Positions 1,663 to 10,071 of a stretch of DNA of 10,071 nt are shown piece by piece. The notes beneath the pieces were generated by a model. It was given only the letters and a program-made list of their open reading frames with translations, had not been told where the DNA came from and did no database searches. The stretch lies in contig DAHXMR010000130.1 of NCBI GenBank assembly GCA_027371655.1, positions 1 to 10,071 of the forward strand, given 5' to 3'. Position 1 is the stretch's first letter. Each line of letters opens with the position of its first letter. This stretch comes from Microcaldota archaeon. Lineage in GTDB: Archaea; Micrarchaeota; Micrarchaeia; Norongarragalinales; CAINOH01. The position numbers and the translations under genes are program-made.

Positions 1663-2787
1663 ATGCCGGAAAAACCAAAGCAGAAGGATTACGCGCCGCT
1701 GCCCGCGCAGCCCCAGAAGGTTTCGATAGAATTTGCGCTTCCCCAGTTCGACTCCGCCTTCAAGCTAAAGCTGCCCTTCCTGGCCATCCTTCTTTTCGTG
1801 TTCTCGTTCTCGCTTTACCTGCTTGCGGAATCGCGCGCGCTTTCCATGGATTGGTTCACCGAATTCACGAACCTGCAGAACCTGCTTCTGCCCCGGCTTT
1901 ACAGCCCCGCGTTCCTTTTGTTCCTGCTTTGCGTTTCGCTGTGCTTCGCGCTCTCCTCGTTCTTCGGCTTCGGCCAATCCTCGCGCATGCACTCGGTTTT
2001 CGTGCTTTTGGCGACCATGGTCCCCGCGCTTGCCATGGGCCTGGTTTACTCGGGGGACCACCCCAATTACGCCGCGGCGTTCATCGCCCTTTCGCTTGGC
2101 GTTTCATCGGCCGCGTATTTTTCCGCCAAAAAAGACAAGCCCACCAAATCCGAGGTGTGGTACGCAATCGGCAACGCGATGACGTTTTTCGCGGCAGTCG
2201 CCTTCGTGGCAACCCTCGCGGTCGTGTGGACCAACAACGACACGTTCACCGACAAGGTTTTCCTGGGAATGGCCAACGCGGCGCCGGTAACCCTGCGCGA
2301 GGCGGCCAAGGCGGGCGCGTCCGCCGTCGACAACTACCAGGTGGACAACGCGACCATAGAAAGCATGATTACCGAAAAAGACGCGCAACTTCTTTACGAT
2401 GCAATGCGCGACACCACCGTTTCGCAGGCAACCGGCGCCGTCCGCACGATGCTTGAAGCATCCTTCCCGACCTTCGACAAGCTCGGCGATTCAAGCAAGG
2501 CCAGCCTCACCAACGGCCTTAAGCGCTCGCTTGTCAACGCGTTTCCCGCCATCAAGCAGAAATTCGCCGCAGGATTGCGCGACTTCGCAAGCGCGGAGGC
2601 GCAGCCGCCCACCGACGCGCAAATCAAGCGGCTGAGGGGCCAAATGGAGGGATTGCCCCAATTCCAGCTCATGAAATCCGGCCTTCCCCTTGCGTTGGCG
2701 CTTTTCGTATACTCGTTCATCTCGCTTCTGCGCTTCATCGTCAGGCCGGTCGCAGTGCTTGCGACACTTGGCCTGATCATGCTCTGA
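1663..2787 (+). CDS. Polytopic membrane protein of unknown function
   Basis: I do not recognise this 374-residue protein. The hydrophobic segments are at about 36-55, 82-104, 109-130, 136-155 and 168-190. A polar region of about 145 residues (191-337) follows, then a final hydrophobic stretch at 338-374 that could hold one or two helices. The N-terminal 30 residues are polar and proline-containing, presumably cytoplasmic. The large polar region is rich in Ala, Asp and Lys, looks mostly helical (for example REAAKAGASAVDNY and SKASLTNGLKRSLVNAF), and lacks the cysteines that mark the downstream genes. The C-terminus ends at the membrane with no tail. The start is supported by AAGGT eight bases upstream; the alternative frame across the same DNA gives an Arg/His/Gly-rich, non-protein-like product. 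It has its own promoter candidate and sits between housekeeping genes and the Cys-rich cluster, so its link to either is uncertain. Confidence 0.85.
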   Translation: MPEKPKQKDYAPLPAQPQKVSIEFALPQFDSAFKLKLPFLAILLFVFSFSLYLLAESRALSMDWFTEFTNLQNLLLPRLYSPAFLLFLLCVSLCFALSSFFGFGQSSRMHSVFVLLATMVPALAMGLVYSGDHPNYAAAFIALSLGVSSAAYFSAKKDKPTKSEVWYAIGNAMTFFAAVAFVATLAVVWTNNDTFTDKVFLGMANAAPVTLREAAKAGASAVDNYQVDNATIESMITEKDAQLLYDAMRDTTVSQATGAVRTMLEASFPTFDKLGDSSKASLTNGLKRSLVNAFPAIKQKFAAGLRDFASAEAQPPTDAQIKRLRGQMEGLPQFQLMKSGLPLALALFVYSFISLLRFIVRPVAVLATLGLIML

Positions 2788-2872: not shown

Positions 2873-5077
2873 ATGAAGCCGCTTCCGCGGCCAAGCCCGC
2901 AAAGCCCGCTGCTTGGAAAGGCATTGCTTGCAGCAATAGCCATCCTTGCGCTTGCCGCAGTGTCCTTTTCGGCCTACGAACTGTTCTTCAAGCCCGCACC
3001 CGAAACCGCCCAAGCCCCATCGCCCACGCCCGGCCCCACGCCCACGCCATACCAGCAGCGCCTGTGCTCGGGCGCCGCCCGCGACTACATCTGCCCGCCC
3101 GGCTGCCCTGCGGCATCGGACATCGACTGCTGCATTGCGCAAAAAAACTGCTGGATACCGGGCGTCGGCTGCGTGCAAAACGCCACGCAAAAAACCGGCT
3201 GCATTTTATGCAACCCAACGCTTTCGCAAACGGATTGGAGCAACAAGCCCGACAACTCCCCGTGCACGCCCGACTCCAATCCCTGCACCTCCGATGCGTG
3301 CCTCGGCGGCGAATGCGCGCACCCCGCGCTTGAAAACGGAACTGCGTGCCCCGGCGGCGCATGCTGCGGTTCCGCGTGCCAACCTATGCCAAAATGCACA
3401 AGCTGCCAAGACGGCCCGGTGTGCGAAAGCGGAAAATGGGTTTGCAAGGACAAGCCGAAGGGAACCGCGTGCCAGAAAACATTGGACGCCAACTGCACCA
3501 CCGGCACCTGCGACGGCAGCGGAAACTGCACTGCGACAATTTTGCCCAACTTCTGCTTCCTGCAAAACGCGTGCTTTGGCGCCGCTGAAAAAAATCCGTC
3601 GAACGACTGCCAAAAATGCTCGCCGGATTATTCGCAAACCGCCTGGCAAACACAGGCCGATGCAACCGCCTGCAAAGACGACGGAAACGAATGCACGACC
3701 GACGTATGCAAGGCCGGCCTGTGCACCCATACTGCCAAAGAGCAGGGCGCCGCATGCACCGACGACGGATTGGCGTGCACACTGGACTTCTGCTCTTCTT
3801 CCGGCCAGTGCTCGCACGCAGCGAAACAGGGCTTCTGCGTGATTGGCGGAAAATGCGTCAAAGACGGCCAGGAGAATCCCTCCAACCCCTGCCAGTACTG
3901 CAACTCCGCGGAAAGCAATTCCAATTGGAGCGCAAAGGCAGAGTTCGCGCAATGCGGCTCCGAGGCGGACTGCGGCAAGAGCCAGTGCGTGAGGGGAACG
4001 TGCACGGCGATGGAAAAGCCCGACGGCACCGCATGCAGCCCCGACGCTTACAACTGCACACTCGACGTTTGCAAACACGGCGTGTGCTCGCACGATGTGC
4101 AAGCCGGATGCATCATCGGCGGCATCTGCGTTGCGGAAGGAAGCAAAAGCCCGCAAAACGAGTGCCTGAAATGCTCGCGGCAAATCAACCCGTATAATTG
4201 GACGGTGCGCGAAAGCGAACCGTGCACGGACGACGGAAAGGAATGCACAAAGGACGTGTGCAACGCGCAAGCGCAATGCACGCACCCGAACAAGGACGCG
4301 GGCGCGTCGTGTTCCTCGGATTCGAACCCGTGCACAAGCGACGAATGCAACGGAAACGGATTGTGCACGCACCCATTGAAGCCCAAGGGCACCGCCTGCT
4401 CGACCATCAACCGGTGCGACGCGAACGAAATATGCAAGGCCACCGCCTGCGACGAAAGCGGGAACTGCGTGCTGCCCGGCGGAAACTGCTATTACTGCAA
4501 CCAGGCCACGCAAAACCTGTGCAAAACCGAGTCCTGCAACAGCATAGTCAACTACTGCACCAACGTGAACGGAATATGGCGCTGGACCACGGAGCCCTCA
4601 TGCGACGACTCCGACCCCTGCACCAAAGGCGATGCTTGCACGAAAGGCAACTGCATAGGCCCCGAATACAACCCCGCACCAGCTTGCGGCACCTACACGA
4701 TACTCGACTGCCCGCAAAACACGAACAAAAACAACACGATAATAACGGCAAGGCACTACTCCAAATTCTCGCCCTCCTGCGCCGGCGTAAACGTTTCCGC
4801 AATCCTGTTGGACGACGGCACCGCGGCCGGCGCGCAAACAGTCTGCCAAAACAACACGCTGATCACGTCCCTCTCCACGCAAAAACCCGGAGAATACCAG
4901 TTCAACGCCACGGACTCGAAGGGCGACGTAAAAACCTGCAAAATACAGCGCTTCGGCCAGGGCGCGCCCGCATTCGAATTCCCCGACTTCGATCCCCTGC
5001 TTTTGCCCGCGCTTGCAATTGCGGCAATCCTCCTTGTCAGGCGTGCGGGCCGGAAAATGCAAAAGGCGATGACTTAA
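2873..5077 (+). CDS. Large Cys-rich surface protein with slime-mold-type CTDC repeats
   Basis: This 734-residue protein has about 80 cysteines (near 11%). An N-terminal hydrophobic anchor (14-39) is followed by a Pro/Thr spacer (41-60, ending PTPGPTPTPYQQ) and a long Cys-rich ectodomain. Six units resemble the Dictyostelium CTDC repeat (CxDDGxxCTxDVCxxGxCxH), at about 131-152, 267-287, 295-315, 388-408, 451-472 and 480-501. Four units of a second type (CxIxGxC, PxNxCxxC, then Trp) are at about 88-122, 228-258, 322-352 and 413-443. Residues 605-692 look like an Ig-like beta domain (GEYQFNATD, then CK). The protein ends with EFPDFDPLLLPALAIAAILL and a basic tail. The cysteine pattern implies export and disulfide bonding, and many N-x-S/T sites are present. 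It likely acts at the cell surface as a structural or adhesive protein; no enzyme motif is seen. With hydrophobic segments at both ends, either the first is cleaved or the protein is held at both ends. The start is fixed by the TATA at -27 and by the anchor beginning soon after it. Confidence 0.85.
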   Translation: MKPLPRPSPQSPLLGKALLAAIAILALAAVSFSAYELFFKPAPETAQAPSPTPGPTPTPYQQRLCSGAARDYICPPGCPAASDIDCCIAQKNCWIPGVGCVQNATQKTGCILCNPTLSQTDWSNKPDNSPCTPDSNPCTSDACLGGECAHPALENGTACPGGACCGSACQPMPKCTSCQDGPVCESGKWVCKDKPKGTACQKTLDANCTTGTCDGSGNCTATILPNFCFLQNACFGAAEKNPSNDCQKCSPDYSQTAWQTQADATACKDDGNECTTDVCKAGLCTHTAKEQGAACTDDGLACTLDFCSSSGQCSHAAKQGFCVIGGKCVKDGQENPSNPCQYCNSAESNSNWSAKAEFAQCGSEADCGKSQCVRGTCTAMEKPDGTACSPDAYNCTLDVCKHGVCSHDVQAGCIIGGICVAEGSKSPQNECLKCSRQINPYNWTVRESEPCTDDGKECTKDVCNAQAQCTHPNKDAGASCSSDSNPCTSDECNGNGLCTHPLKPKGTACSTINRCDANEICKATACDESGNCVLPGGNCYYCNQATQNLCKTESCNSIVNYCTNVNGIWRWTTEPSCDDSDPCTKGDACTKGNCIGPEYNPAPACGTYTILDCPQNTNKNNTIITARHYSKFSPSCAGVNVSAILLDDGTAAGAQTVCQNNTLITSLSTQKPGEYQFNATDSKGDVKTCKIQRFGQGAPAFEFPDFDPLLLPALAIAAILLVRRAGRKMQKAMT
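3134..4375 (+). repeat. Protein-level alternating Cys repeats (two unit types)
   Basis: The coding repeats alternate. Type A units (CxIxGxC...NPxNxCxxC...W) are at 3134-3238, 3554-3646, 3836-3928 and 4109-4201. Type B units (CTDDGxxCTxDVC-like) are at 3263-3328, 3671-3733, 3755-3817, 4034-4096, 4223-4288 and 4310-4375. The units have diverged at DNA level, so this is not a short tandem DNA repeat or a CRISPR array. Additional weaker Cys units flank these (for example residues 200-219 and 577-594). Confidence 0.75.
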
Positions 5078-5118
5078 AAAAAGGGCAAACCCCCCTTTAC
5101 GTAAGAAGTGCACCCGAA

Positions 5119-5727
5119 ATGGCAGCGAAAACGCGCGCAAACGAAAAAGGGATCCCAAACGCCGGCGGCCAAGGCATTCCGAATTGGGCGGGAATCGCAC
5201 TGGCACTTGCGGCAATCGCGCTTGCATTCCTATTCTTTTCGTCAACGGGAAAAAACGCCGCGCAATCCCCGGAAACCCCGGGCGCCGCCCAAGCCCCCGT
5301 AGCAACTCCGACTTTGGCAGCAACGCCGGCTTCCGCATTTTCGCCAACGCCCGTGCCCTCGGCTGCCCCGGCGCAGCTTCCGCAGCCTCCCTCGCCTTCG
5401 GGAAAGCATTTCAACCGGCTTGGCACGCTTGCTGCCGTTGAAGCCCCGGATTCGCTGGCAAAATTTTACGTAAGCTTTTTCGCGGACATCCGCGAGCCGC
5501 TTTCCAACGCTTCAATTTCGGTTGGCGGAAAAAACTTTTCATACGACGGCGCCCCAAGCTGCCTTGAGTACGGGGGGAATATAACCGGGGCGTGTACGCT
5601 GACATATGCGGACCGCTGGGAAATCGAATACCTTGCGGCGGTGGAAAATTCCGTGCCCGGAAAATCCTACGAAATCAAACTCCAAAGCGATGAAAAAAAC
5701 GCGTCCATGACTTACGTAAAAAAATGA
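5119..5727 (+). CDS. Anchored protein with C-terminal domain shared with the gene at 7867
   Basis: I do not recognise a named family. The 202-residue protein has a short cytoplasmic N-terminus, one membrane helix (about 22-42), a long Ala/Pro/Thr/Ser spacer (43-95), and a globular domain of about 105 residues (97-202). That domain aligns with the last 105 residues of the protein encoded at 7867-9459, by eye about 45% identical. Shared landmarks are HFxxLxTL, FYxSxFxDIxxPLxNAxISV, APSC, GAC, and GKxYxIxLxS before a final YV. Two conserved cysteines (C148 and C159) could form a disulfide. The alternating hydrophobic pattern suggests a beta-rich, Ig-like fold outside the cell. The frame is open far upstream through the previous gene, but ATG 5119 is the only sensible start because the anchor follows it. 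No clear Shine-Dalgarno site or promoter is seen in the 41-base gap, so co-transcription with the previous gene is likely. Confidence 0.82.
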   Translation: MAAKTRANEKGIPNAGGQGIPNWAGIALALAAIALAFLFFSSTGKNAAQSPETPGAAQAPVATPTLAATPASAFSPTPVPSAAPAQLPQPPSPSGKHFNRLGTLAAVEAPDSLAKFYVSFFADIREPLSNASISVGGKNFSYDGAPSCLEYGGNITGACTLTYADRWEIEYLAAVENSVPGKSYEIKLQSDEKNASMTYVKK

Positions 5728-5760
5728 ACGGGCAAAAAACCCGCTTGAAATTAATTTGTG

Positions 5761-5776
5761 AAGGTAATTTGAAATG
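5761..5776 (+). promoter_or_regulatory. AAGGT ribosome binding site of the second Cys-rich gene
   Basis: AAGGT at 5761-5765 is followed by eight bases and the ATG at 5774. The same AAGGT, eight-base spacing and ATG occurs before the gene at 1663. It supports ATG 5774 as the start and a leadered or internal-operon mode of translation. Confidence 0.45.
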
Positions 5777-7792
5777 CGCTTTTCTGCAAAAACCGCGTTC
5801 GCCGCGCTTCTTGTCGCGGCCGCCTTTTCCGGCATTGCAAGCGCGTGCGCAAGCGACGGCGACTGCCTTTGCAGGGACAACGTCCCCAATTGCGTGGACT
5901 ACGGCAACGGATGGGGCAATTATTACGGCCGCTGCGTTGGCGGGTACTGCGTTTTCTGCACCGACGGGATAGACAACGATTACAGCGGCACAAAAGACTG
6001 CCAGGAGGGAACGTACTGTTCCGCCGCCGACTACTGCGGCGCGGGCGTGCCGGCAATATGCCTGGCCGGCCAGCCGTGGTACGGCCCTTCGGCGCCAACG
6101 TCCACCGCGGGATGGGAGTGCTGCATCGGAGGGGGCAGGGCGAATTTCGGCGGCAGCACTTATTGTTCGTCGGATTGCGGCGCGTCAGGAGAATGCAACG
6201 GCCTGCAGCCGAATTCTTATGCCGGGAACTGCAATGCCGGAACGTGGGCGGTGCGCGACTACTGCGATTCGAACTGCCGGGCCCGCGACTATCCGTCGGG
6301 CAACGCGAATTCGCAGTGCTGGCAGGATGCGGGTGCAAGCTGCACCGCGCCGTACTGCCCTAACAAGTACCCCGGCCAGTGCTATGATTCAACGCGGTAT
6401 TGCAGCCTGCCCTCGCAAGGCAACGGAATAGACCCGTGCACTTCCCTGCAGTCCTGCGGAACGCAGGCATGCCACGCAACGGACGTAGTGGGCGAAAATA
6501 CCGCGACAATAACATTGCGCGTTTTCCCCGCAAGCTGCGGCAAAACATGCTCGGACCGCGCGGACCCGCGGAATTGGGGGCTGCCCAACTGCAACAACTG
6601 CGGAGGCGCAAACGGCGACGCCAATTCCTGCGCGCCGGCAACCACGTCCTGGCTTTGCGACGCGCCCAAAGCCTGCACATCGCAATACGTTTCCCAAACA
6701 AGCGCAACTTATTACTGCCAATACGACGCGTCCCGCGGATGGGTGTGGAAACAGGCCACCGCCGAAGGCACGCGGTGCCCCGGCCCCTCCGACACCGTTT
6801 CGCCCGGGTGCGAAGACTCGGGGGCCAATTCGGGCCTGCCCCTTGGTGGCGGAGTTTGCAAGGAATACCGCTGCAGAAGCGGCGCATGCAGCCTCGACCC
6901 CGTAAAAACCGATTACTGCGGCGGAAATTCGCCCTCGTGCAACGGAGCGCCGTGCTCGCTCACATATTATTCCTGCTCATCGTCAACCGGCGCGTGCGTG
7001 CCCTCGACGTATTCCCAATCCGATTGGTGCTCGGACAACGGCACGCAATACGGAGGCGGCGCGTGCGGCGCCCAAAACTGGACGTGCGCGGGCGTGCCGG
7101 GAATAATGCACGTTGCAAGCACCGGCACTTTGCTGGGGGGAGGCGACGGGGTGGATTTGTGCGCCGGCGCTTACAGCCAAAACGTTTCATACTACTCCTG
7201 CAACCCCGACAACAATGCCTGCGCGCAACAGCCCGCTTCCTGCGGCCAAAATTCCACGTGCCCCCCGGGAGGCAGTTTGCTTGCGCCGTGTTCGCGTTTT
7301 TGCTCCACTCAAAACAGCACGGGCGAACAGGCCTGGGGCGGGGCGGGCATGTGCCAGGCGTGCACTCCCGACTGCAAGGGGGCGCTAAACCTTAACGGTT
7401 TTTCCGAATTGTCCTGCGAAACCCTGATTGCCGCAAACACCAGCACAGCATACGTGCGGTATTACTCGGCGGGAAACGCGAAGTGCTCGCCGGGCACGCT
7501 TGTGGCCGCCACGGTTTTATTCAACGGCGCGGCCCTGCAGCCCTCCCAAGTTTCGGTTTCCCCCGACTGCAGCACCATGCTTTGGAGCGCGAGCTTCCCA
7601 AGCGGCCAAAACGGCACGTACGAAATATCCTTCAACGCGACCGACGGCACGGGGTACGGCGCGTCATGCAAATCGCTCAAAATAGTCCCTGCAACAAAAG
7701 CCCCGGACTTCGACTTCCTGCTTTTGCCCCTCCTCGCAATAGGCGCCCTATTATTGGCAAGAACCCGGAATCGCGGAAAAACGCAAAAATAA
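5774..7792 (+). CDS. Secreted Cys-rich surface protein with C-terminal membrane anchor
   Basis: This 672-residue protein has about 62 cysteines. A cleavable signal peptide is clear: RFSAK, a hydrophobic core, then GIASA with likely cleavage after A24. Near residues 62-76 the sequence CTDGIDNDYSGTKDC resembles the MopE-type DGxDND motif, a possible metal- or calcium-binding loop. Residues 131-180 (SSDCGASGECNG..., GNCNAGTWAVRDYCDSNC, DYPSGNANS) match the Cys-rich protein starting at 9497. The middle (200-535) is irregular, rich in Gly, Ser and Cys. Residues 536-637 correspond to the Ig-like tail of the 2873 gene (GTYEISFNATD, then SCK). The end, APDFDFLLLPLLAIGALLLARTRNRGK, is a motif, hydrophobic helix and basic tail. 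The mature protein should sit outside the cell, anchored or sorted through its C-terminus. Its function is unknown; a structural or adhesive role is inference. It starts 46 bases after the previous gene with an AAGGT site. Confidence 0.85.
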   Translation: MRFSAKTAFAALLVAAAFSGIASACASDGDCLCRDNVPNCVDYGNGWGNYYGRCVGGYCVFCTDGIDNDYSGTKDCQEGTYCSAADYCGAGVPAICLAGQPWYGPSAPTSTAGWECCIGGGRANFGGSTYCSSDCGASGECNGLQPNSYAGNCNAGTWAVRDYCDSNCRARDYPSGNANSQCWQDAGASCTAPYCPNKYPGQCYDSTRYCSLPSQGNGIDPCTSLQSCGTQACHATDVVGENTATITLRVFPASCGKTCSDRADPRNWGLPNCNNCGGANGDANSCAPATTSWLCDAPKACTSQYVSQTSATYYCQYDASRGWVWKQATAEGTRCPGPSDTVSPGCEDSGANSGLPLGGGVCKEYRCRSGACSLDPVKTDYCGGNSPSCNGAPCSLTYYSCSSSTGACVPSTYSQSDWCSDNGTQYGGGACGAQNWTCAGVPGIMHVASTGTLLGGGDGVDLCAGAYSQNVSYYSCNPDNNACAQQPASCGQNSTCPPGGSLLAPCSRFCSTQNSTGEQAWGGAGMCQACTPDCKGALNLNGFSELSCETLIAANTSTAYVRYYSAGNAKCSPGTLVAATVLFNGAALQPSQVSVSPDCSTMLWSASFPSGQNGTYEISFNATDGTGYGASCKSLKIVPATKAPDFDFLLLPLLAIGALLLARTRNRGKTQK

Positions 7793-7811
7793 ACCGCCCA
7801 AAGGAGCATCC

Positions 7812-7866
7812 GCCATATTTAAAAAAGCGGAAAACCCCTTATTTATCCGGAGCTATAGGTCCCCAA
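7812..7866 (+). promoter_or_regulatory. Candidate promoter region for the helical-repeat protein
   Basis: Two AT-rich sites stand out in the 74-base gap. ATATTTAAAAAA (7815-7826) would give a start near 7844 with a short leader. CTTATTTAT (7838-7846) would place the start at about 7868, at the ATG itself. AGGT at 7857-7860, six bases before the ATG, would serve only the first, leadered transcript. Which one is used cannot be told from sequence. Confidence 0.45.
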
Positions 7867-9459
7867 ATGGCACAATCAACGCCGATTGCAAACACGCTGA
7901 CAAAAGGCGTAGCCATCGCCCTCGCCGCAATCATCCTGCTTTTCATCGCATCCCAGCTCTACAATCCGCAACCGCAAGCACAGCCAACGCCAATCCCAAC
8001 CGCACAGGCAACCCCAACTCCCGCCCCCTTGTTTGTCGAAGTCTCCGGAATCGAAGCGGCGCAAAGCGCAATCGCATTCATCAACGGCATGAAGCTTGCA
8101 GACGGAACTTACGTTTACTCGGTTGACTGCGATTCAACCGGCTGCAACAAGAAAAGCAACTTGACGGGATTGCCGCAAAGCAACGCGTGGGCCGCATTCG
8201 CAAACATCGGCCTCTACCGCGCCACAAAAGACTCAAAATACCTTGACGCGGCAAAGGCCGAAGTGGCAAAAGAAATCGAAATCTGCTCCAAGGCAGACGG
8301 CACAATCGTCGGTCCAAGCGAGCAGAAGAACTGCCTGTGGGCGCTCGTCCAGCCGTACGAGGTTTACAAGGAAACAAACGACGCGAAAACAAAAGATTTC
8401 ATTTTGAAAAACGCCGAAACAATCCTGCGTTACCTGCGGCCGGATCCAACGCAGGGCGCGGGAATGCTGCAGTCGATTATTGCCAGAGAGCTTGCGATTG
8501 CGTACTCGCTTTCCAGCGACGGGAAATTCCTGCAGGCGGCAGTCGGGTTCGACAATGCGGCAAAGCAATCCATGGACGCGGACAACCGCGTTGCTTTCGC
8601 AAACGGATTCCCGGTGCGCCTCGAAGAATGCTGGCAAAAACTTGCGGAACTCCAATTGTACGGGGCCGCACAAAACCAATCCTACCTCGATTCCGCCAAG
8701 GGCTTTTTCGACGGAATAGAACAAGCCGGCGCGTCGGGCGAATTCTACAAGAATTTTGAAATCGCAACGCAGCTGCACCCCTGCATCGAATCGCTTCAAC
8801 TGCTCTCCGAAAAAACCGGCGCCTCCAAATACTCCGAAGAGGCGGCAAAAATCTCCGCCTATCTTGCCCAAGCGTCCTGGGACTCGGAGTTCTCGAAAAA
8901 ATACGATGGCCGCGGCGGTTTCGCTACAATGTTCTGCCGGGTTGCCGACGGTTCTTCGCTGTGCGCCCCTTCAAACGACAAAACAATCACCGACAATTCT
9001 TACGGCGCATACCTCCTTGCAAAACCCGGTTTGAACCTCCCGATTGAAAGGACTGCCGGCCGGCCCAAGGGGCAGCTTTACTTCAACTCGACGCAACTTC
9101 CAAAAATTACGCCACAGCCCGTGCCGGCAAAAAACTGGACGCACTTCGATCCCCTTGAAACGCTTCAAGTCTTCAAAGCCTCGGATTCCCCGTCCACGTT
9201 CTACGCGAGCTATTTCGTCGACATAAACGCGCCGCTTGCAAACGCGGTCATCTCGGTTGACGGCGAAAAATTCCCATTCGACAGCGCGCCAAGCTGCTTC
9301 AACATGAGCGTGCTGAAAGGCGCGTGCACCCGGCGCGACACCATCCGCTCGGAAATCCAGTACGTGGCAACGTTTGAAAAAGCGGTTGCAGGCAAAACAT
9401 ATTCGATAGGACTTTCAAGCGGAGAGAAAACCGCGAAAATCCAGTACGTGCATTCTTAA
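7867..9459 (+). CDS. Membrane-anchored alpha/alpha helical-repeat protein with shared C-terminal domain
   Basis: This 530-residue protein has a membrane anchor (12-32), a Pro/Thr/Gln spacer (33-55, with PTPIPTAQATPTPAP), and an all-helical domain (about 60-390). It ends in a ~105-residue domain (426-530) shared with the protein at 5119. The helical domain is built of hairpins with the recurring pattern LYxATKDSKYLDAA: about 104-137, 156-190, 203-236, 254-287 and 299-333, with a last element near 376-388 (DNSYGAYLLAKPG). This is the look of an alpha/alpha toroid, the fold of many glycosidases, epimerases and lyases acting on carbohydrates. I see no diagnostic catalytic pair, so enzyme activity is not claimed; a sugar-binding or degenerate role is equally possible. 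There are eight cysteines in the helical domain and two (C477, C487) in the tail, consistent with disulfides outside the cell. ATG 7867 is chosen because the anchor follows at once; the open frame further upstream only overlaps the previous gene. Confidence 0.85.
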   Translation: MAQSTPIANTLTKGVAIALAAIILLFIASQLYNPQPQAQPTPIPTAQATPTPAPLFVEVSGIEAAQSAIAFINGMKLADGTYVYSVDCDSTGCNKKSNLTGLPQSNAWAAFANIGLYRATKDSKYLDAAKAEVAKEIEICSKADGTIVGPSEQKNCLWALVQPYEVYKETNDAKTKDFILKNAETILRYLRPDPTQGAGMLQSIIARELAIAYSLSSDGKFLQAAVGFDNAAKQSMDADNRVAFANGFPVRLEECWQKLAELQLYGAAQNQSYLDSAKGFFDGIEQAGASGEFYKNFEIATQLHPCIESLQLLSEKTGASKYSEEAAKISAYLAQASWDSEFSKKYDGRGGFATMFCRVADGSSLCAPSNDKTITDNSYGAYLLAKPGLNLPIERTAGRPKGQLYFNSTQLPKITPQPVPAKNWTHFDPLETLQVFKASDSPSTFYASYFVDINAPLANAVISVDGEKFPFDSAPSCFNMSVLKGACTRRDTIRSEIQYVATFEKAVAGKTYSIGLSSGEKTAKIQYVHS

Positions 9460-9496
9460 GCATTAATCAAAACAAGGTTTCCAGGTTTTACGGAAA

Positions 9497-10071
9497 ATGA
9501 TGAAAAAAAGTTTGCTTGCGCTGGTTTCGATTGCATTCATTCTTGCCCTAGCTCCCTCGGCCAAGGCCGATGCGTGCGACTCCACCAATTGCGGCGGAGG
9601 ATGCTGCATAGGCGCATGGGATTACAACCAGCCCGCCCAAGCGTGCTTCGCGGACAATTCATATCTCACTTCCGGCACCAGCACCTACGACCCCGGATTT
9701 TGCGGGTACACGTATCCCTATCGTTACAATCTCGGCTCCTGCAACAATTGCGCCCAATACGCCAGCTACGGATGCAGCGGCGGTTCGTGGACGGGCGTAT
9801 GCACGGGAACCTACGGCATTTACCGCAGCAGCAACACCGGATGCGGCAACACCTGTACGTACATCCAGGACATCCCGCAGTGCCCGCCGTGCAACGGAAA
9901 ACTAGACTTGTCGGGCGTGTGTTCCACTGCATGCGGCGCTAATGCCGGATGCAACGGAGTTGCCCCCGGCGGCTGGAGGGGGAATTGCGGCGCGGGGTCT
10001 TGGGCGGTATTGGACACGTGCGACGCGAATTGCAATCCGATTGACTATCCCCCGGGAAACGTGAATGCAAA
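9497..10071 (+). CDS. Secreted Cys-rich protein, N-terminal part (continues past right edge)
   Basis: The first 191 codons of an exported Cys-rich protein are visible, with 20 cysteines so far, and the frame is open to the window end. There is a clear signal peptide: MMKKS, a hydrophobic core, then PSAKA with likely cleavage after A24. An early CGGGCCIGAW resembles the ECCIGGG of the gene at 5774. Residues 141-190 (GVCSTACGANAGCNG, GNCGAGSWAVLDTCDANC, IDYPPGNVN) align with residues 131-180 of that gene, with the cysteines in register. It is therefore a paralogue or partial paralogue, and a C-terminal PDFD-type anchor may lie beyond the window. Two ATG codons are adjacent (9497 and 9500); AGGT at 9483-9486 lies 10 or 13 bases upstream, so the first is slightly preferred. 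It follows the previous gene by 37 bases. Function is unknown; a surface role is inferred. Confidence 0.83.
   Translation, partial: MMKKSLLALVSIAFILALAPSAKADACDSTNCGGGCCIGAWDYNQPAQACFADNSYLTSGTSTYDPGFCGYTYPYRYNLGSCNNCAQYASYGCSGGSWTGVCTGTYGIYRSSNTGCGNTCTYIQDIPQCPPCNGKLDLSGVCSTACGANAGCNGVAPGGWRGNCGAGSWAVLDTCDANCNPIDYPPGNVNA

Follow-up and report, generated by a model that had tools for sequence, protein, structure and literature searches.

What do five closely spaced genes, encoding by turns highly cysteine-rich exported proteins and membrane-anchored proteins, do for the archaeon that carries them? The question is raised by contig DAHXMR010000130.1 of a Microcaldota archaeon (assembly GCA_027371655.1; Micrarchaeota in the GTDB lineage), whose 10,071 nucleotides (nt) are called the window here. 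Genes and products are designated by the first position of their open reading frame (ORF): 2873, 5774 and 9497 for the Cys-rich proteins, 5119 and 7867 for the anchored ones. We tentatively read the cluster, with a little less than an even chance of being right, as a cell-surface locus specific to its lineage, in an archaeon of Micrarchaeota type, combining disulfide-rich stalks with a sugar-directed toroid ectoprotein. The Cys-rich proteins would be exported, heavily disulfide-bonded and kept on the cell by a C-terminal anchor made of a PDFD motif and a hydrophobic segment, and would build rigid stalks or a coat. The product of 7867 would be tethered to the membrane through its N-terminus and display an alpha/alpha toroid outside the cell, where it might bind or process a sugar polymer of its own coat, of a host or of a matrix. 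At the end of 7867 would stand a small beta-rich accessory domain, here called domain X, which 5119 would display alone.

All five ORFs lie on the plus strand, Cys-rich and anchored ones interleaved, with spacings of 37-74 nt, and the fifth runs off the window end. Cysteine accounts for 10.9%, 9.2% and 10.5% of residues in 2873, 5774 and 9497, against 0.5-1.9% in 5119, 7867 and the upstream membrane protein 1663. Hydrophobic segments are found at both ends of 2873; in 5774 a signal-peptide-like start is combined with a segment at the C-terminus, and 5119 and 7867 carry one at the N-terminus only. Judged from the sequences, location of the products outside the cell is well supported. The first-pass annotation, made from the letters alone, had described an alternating series of surface protein genes with a third unit cut by the window end, and this description holds.

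Residues 57-390 of 7867 form an (alpha/alpha)6 toroid in an AlphaFold2 model, as matched by Foldseek and VIA-align. On this model the toroid is a divergent family within a well-known fold.

Relatives were sought in a collection of 5.8 billion proteins (with 7867 and 5774 among the queries). The 5774 search returned P0006, P0007 and P0008 besides the protein itself, and two relatives of cluster proteins are named 'Candidatus Micrarchaeia archaeon'. P0006, the ortholog of 5774, and P0002, the ortholog of 7867, bear locus tags WC792_01405 and WC792_01410 in one metagenome-assembled genome. Locus tags conventionally step by five, and the two genes stand in the window order if tags rise along the plus strand. 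P0003 (a 7867 relative) and P0007 each lie on a contig of 1,226,866 bases. In genome G299 of the same phylum, a toroid protein of 428 amino acids (aa), 28% identical to 7867 (86/310), is anchored and devoid of domain X. It is followed by a gene that, read from its earliest possible start, overlaps it by 4 nt and encodes an exported protein rich in Cys and Thr (6% Cys), cut by the contig end. The tail of this protein, taken alone, weakly matches the start of the C-terminal module of the window Cys-rich proteins (13 bits, expectation value E 1e-5), the whole frame giving no significant total. The order differs: the toroid gene comes first in G299, whereas in the window it has a Cys-rich gene on both sides. 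The first-pass annotation had named homologues that are scattered and never adjacent as evidence against a pairing; these loci speak against such scattering, and recurrent pairing is upheld, in few genomes. Since the G299 toroid lacks domain X and still has a Cys-rich neighbour, it is the neighbourhood of toroid and Cys-rich genes, with three loci, and not domain X, that looks like the older association.

Other matches to the toroid profile were too marginal to be used: those in 3 of 4 genomes in one search and those in 8 of 9 in another. One of them is a 495-aa frame in G287, which by eye has a thioredoxin-like start and a toroid-like body and looks like a toroid protein of another kind. Alignment A1 found nothing in the genome contig scan, nor in a separate search of 10 genomes (0/10).

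Several observations weigh against stalks joined to a sugar-directed toroid, and they are best considered together. The toroid fold in itself gives no function. No Pfam glycosidase cut-off is reached by 7867, and the sole acidic residues invariant in five toroid sequences are D339 and D376. The GH76 family PF03663 was found below its cut-off for one of the five toroid-family members (E 0.44) and was not listed for 7867. The structure model of 5774, at a predicted local distance difference test score (pLDDT) of 29.5, is unusable. Relatives of 7867 besides itself are few (at least three, P0002, P0003 and P0004, among the 7997 scored candidates sharing most words), a clear relative of the toroid is present in one of the 301 genomes of the phylum, namely G299, and of the three loci with adjacent genes one is known by locus tags only.

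Two further readings involve particular residues of the toroid. C255, H304 and C306 are identical in all five toroid sequences; on the first reading they would be comparable to the zinc ligands of LanC and presumably lie at the starts of neighbouring inner helices. The toroid might thus act on the cysteines of its neighbour through a zinc-thiol site of the lanthionine synthetase kind, as the LanCL2 chain 6wq1 among the Foldseek matches (E 2.7e-4) and low-scoring LanM and LanKC rows of NCBIfam (E 0.12-0.14) could suggest. We consider this very improbable: 6wq1 ranks 43rd with many glycosidase and epimerase rows above it, PF05147 (LanC) gave no row for toroid-family members up to E 10, in a search whose HMMER filters may drop weak matches, and other cysteines of the family appear paired, so that C255 and C306 may form one more disulfide. 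It is also rather unlikely, in our estimate, that the locus is a two-part Micrarchaeota surface system, in which an anchored, disulfide-bonded toroid enzyme of a new family modifies or glycan-trims the adjacent Cys-rich stalk through a non-standard active site (W108, Q162, R207, C255-W256, H304, C306, K372, D376), X being a new docking domain that one branch acquired.

Domain X is homologous between 5119 and 7867 (46.6% identity over 118 aa, E 4e-27), confirming the common end domain recognized at first pass. Its identity is 64-68% among 7867, P0002 and P0003, and 46-54% between 5119 and any of these. Because the 5119 copy is more divergent, X copies either split before the lineages of the other three or 5119 evolved faster. 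Neither Pfam nor NCBIfam assigned a family to domain X of the window proteins at E <= 1, and PDB sequences gave no match to its profile up to E 10; two single-member Pfam rows from the toroid-family search, PF21910 (E 0.051) and PF22962 (E 0.082), were not placed and could touch it. Across the 301 genomes, the X profile produced two marginal rows (E 4.1e-4 and 6.3e-4), which were not accepted as relatives. Domain X and the C-terminal module of the Cys-rich proteins look alike by eye; this relationship was rejected on profile-profile comparison, which rated it highly improbable (probability 0.4%, E 0.14).

These homologies bear on the origin proposed in the first-pass annotation, namely that a two-gene unit was duplicated and its copies diverged, domain X serving to dock, process or anchor a Cys-rich fibre. 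Besides the X copies, homology links 5774 with 9497 (54.7% identity over 53 aa, E ~1e-13); each aligns also to P0007, and by these alignments they are paralogs. That homologous parts recur in every second gene as copies of a unit is not borne out. The homology of 2873 and 5774 is confined to the last ~130 residues (aa 608-731 and 543-672; E 2.6e-6 or 0.013, depending on the search direction), and their body repeats differ, six CTxDxC-type units in 2873 versus two GGGxC-type units in 5774. Likewise, 5119 has no toroid: nothing in it corresponds to the helical body of 330 residues in 7867, and the identities of its X copy leave an earlier split or faster change to be assumed. The members are thus not homologous over most of their length, and duplication of the unit has to be regarded as unlikely. 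The part assigned to domain X is weakened as well, because the G299 toroid protein lacks it and because the toroid, absent from the first-pass annotation, recurs with a Cys-rich neighbour.

The main rival to stalks with a sugar-directed toroid is a loose island of surface genes, built from generic anchoring modules without joint function. Their interleaving would be accidental and their adjacency a matter of short evolutionary distance. The C-terminal module agrees with it. Its profile found 28 places in 19 of the 301 genomes; in the 27 with a frame read, Cys content was 0-7%, reaching 4% or more in nine and 8% or more in none, many of the frames being cut. Since it occurs so widely outside highly Cys-rich proteins, the module is a regional commodity and not the trace of a duplicated unit. 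In addition, P0006 is 76% identical to 5774, so its synteny may simply be recent. At another locus, L004, a polymerase-like frame (by eye), an aminopeptidase and a relative of the 1663 protein (22.8% over 232 aa, E 3e-9) follow in the same order as upstream of the cluster, and no cluster comes after them; the cluster is therefore not fixed at its present place. Accidental adjacency is harder to reconcile with G299, where toroid identity has fallen to 28% and a Cys-rich gene still follows the toroid gene, among different neighbours. We hold the loose island to be a real though somewhat doubtful possibility, and retain as preferred the locus of disulfide-rich stalks and a sugar-directed toroid ectoprotein, whose members would then be physical partners.

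Most of the 27 frames with the module (L029-L056) end in a proline motif, a hydrophobic segment and a basic tail. In these 19 genomes the module is possibly a clade-specific anchoring signal. The exact pattern PDF[DN]xLLxP occurs at 15 sites in 14 of the 301 genomes. Four of these, in three genomes, are C-terminal: they stand 24-29 residues before the stop, with a hydrophobic stretch and basic residues after them. The remaining 11 sites have no anchor-like look. PDFD as a multi-copy, genome-wide sorting signal is not supported by these counts. The exosortase/archaeosortase family PF09721 is present in 164 of the 301 genomes, and its distribution (14 of the 19 genomes with the module, 150 of the 282 others) is not discriminating. 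Among the matches listed for genomes G280-G301, several are partial, starting at about profile position 100 in frames of ~160-360 aa, and possibly represent a reduced form.

In 32 chosen genomes the Cys-rich body of 2873 had no match, and alignment A5 matched in three of the same genomes, always within the C-terminal module only. A Cys-rich repeat of ~70 residues, GGG[SMA]C...W.C...C.G...YY.C, is found in 5774, in P0007 (residues 345-661) and in P0008, which has it four times in tandem with a spacing of 71 and carries a precomputed PF11617 label. In the window protein it looks, by this pattern, like a repeat domain unmarked by Pfam.

Upstream of the cluster the window contains the 3' end of a family B DNA polymerase gene and genes for a type II methionyl aminopeptidase and the 1663 membrane protein. 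Among the aminopeptidase relatives listed for named genomes, the top eight comprise seven Micrarchaeota and one 'uncultured archaeon'. Aminopeptidase followed by a 1663-type membrane protein is a gene order seen twice, here and at L004. No sign of a phage or viral origin of the cluster was seen: tblastn with the 7867 protein gave no match in phages, and viral contigs yielded no confirmed relative of toroid-family alignment A2 or of alignment A5.

Table 1. Features of the gene cluster and of the adjoining membrane protein gene, in window coordinates.
Feature	Position	Strand	Description and basis
Cys-rich surface protein 1 (2873)	2873..5077	+	734 aa, 80 Cys; hydrophobic segment aa 13-31, Pro-rich linker, Cys repeats, C-terminal module and putative anchor; ORF call, Cys count
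Repeat region of 2873	3263..4366	+	six CxDDxxxCTxDxCxxxxC-type units, three NxCxxC...W units; pattern count
C-terminal module of 2873	4688..5074	+	PDFD-x-LLLP, hydrophobic segment, basic tail; alignment
Short anchored protein (5119)	5119..5727	+	202 aa; N-terminal transmembrane segment aa 24-42, Pro-rich linker, domain X
Domain X, copy 1 (5119)	5407..5724	+	alignment to 7867 product
Cys-rich surface protein 2 (5774)	5774..7792	+	672 aa, 62 Cys; signal-peptide-like N-terminus, Cys-rich body, C-terminal module and putative PDFD anchor; relatives P0006 (76%), P0007
GGGxC-type repeat region of 5774	6803..7282	+	two Cys repeats of ~70 aa; common to P0007 and P0008
C-terminal module of 5774	7391..7789	+	PDFD-x-LLLP, hydrophobic segment, basic residues; alignment
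Anchored toroid protein (7867)	7867..9459	+	530 aa; N-terminal transmembrane segment aa 10-28, Pro-rich linker, predicted alpha/alpha toroid, domain X; relatives P0002 (68%), P0003 (57%)
Alpha/alpha toroid domain of 7867	8035..9036	+	aa ~57-390; AlphaFold2 model, Foldseek and VIA-align matches
Domain X, copy 2 (7867)	9130..9456	+	alignment; AlphaFold2 model of low confidence, pLDDT ~45-65
Cys-rich surface protein 3 (9497)	9497..10071	+	cut by window end, 20 Cys; N-terminus homologous to P0007, and to 5774 over 53 aa
Membrane protein (1663)	1663-2787		~5 hydrophobic segments; no Pfam cut-off reached

Most DPANN archaea are described as ectosymbionts (PMC8407392). As far as titles and abstract openings show, a literature search on Micrarchaeota surfaces turned up no account of a host-contact apparatus of the group and no description of the present locus. 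The cluster looks like a surface kit specific to a Micrarchaeota-type lineage. Alone it does not settle function; it supplies concrete, testable surface candidates for Micrarchaeota, a divergent toroid family to which no catalytic role is assigned and a small domain that no curated family covers.

Three known systems invite comparison. PGF-CTERM and PEF-CTERM are families of archaeal C-terminal sorting signals, carried by archaeosortase substrates. Like them, 2873 and 5774 have at the extreme C-terminus a short P-[DE]-F motif, a hydrophobic segment and a basic tail; they differ in matching no NCBIfam CTERM model, or any other NCBIfam row, at E <= 1, where HMMER filters may drop weak matches. 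The Cys-rich repeats of 2873 resemble the Dictyostelium CTDC repeat (PF00526) in three weak stretches (E 0.0012), their 19 bits lying under the Pfam cut-off of 27 bits. The toroid of 7867 resembles GH76 alpha-mannanases, GH127, GH88/105 and AGE-type epimerases in its predicted fold and in weak local sequence matches. GH76 enzymes use an Asp pair for catalysis, at which titles of mutant entries among the structural matches also hint; a counterpart in the toroid would have to be placed from sequence alignments that are brief, disagree in register and score less than 12 bits per stretch. The toroid of 7867 differs from toroid sugar enzymes in its low identity to them (8-16% in the 50 structural matches listed), in staying under every Pfam cut-off, and in its several invariant cysteines, its N-terminal membrane anchor and its C-terminal domain X.
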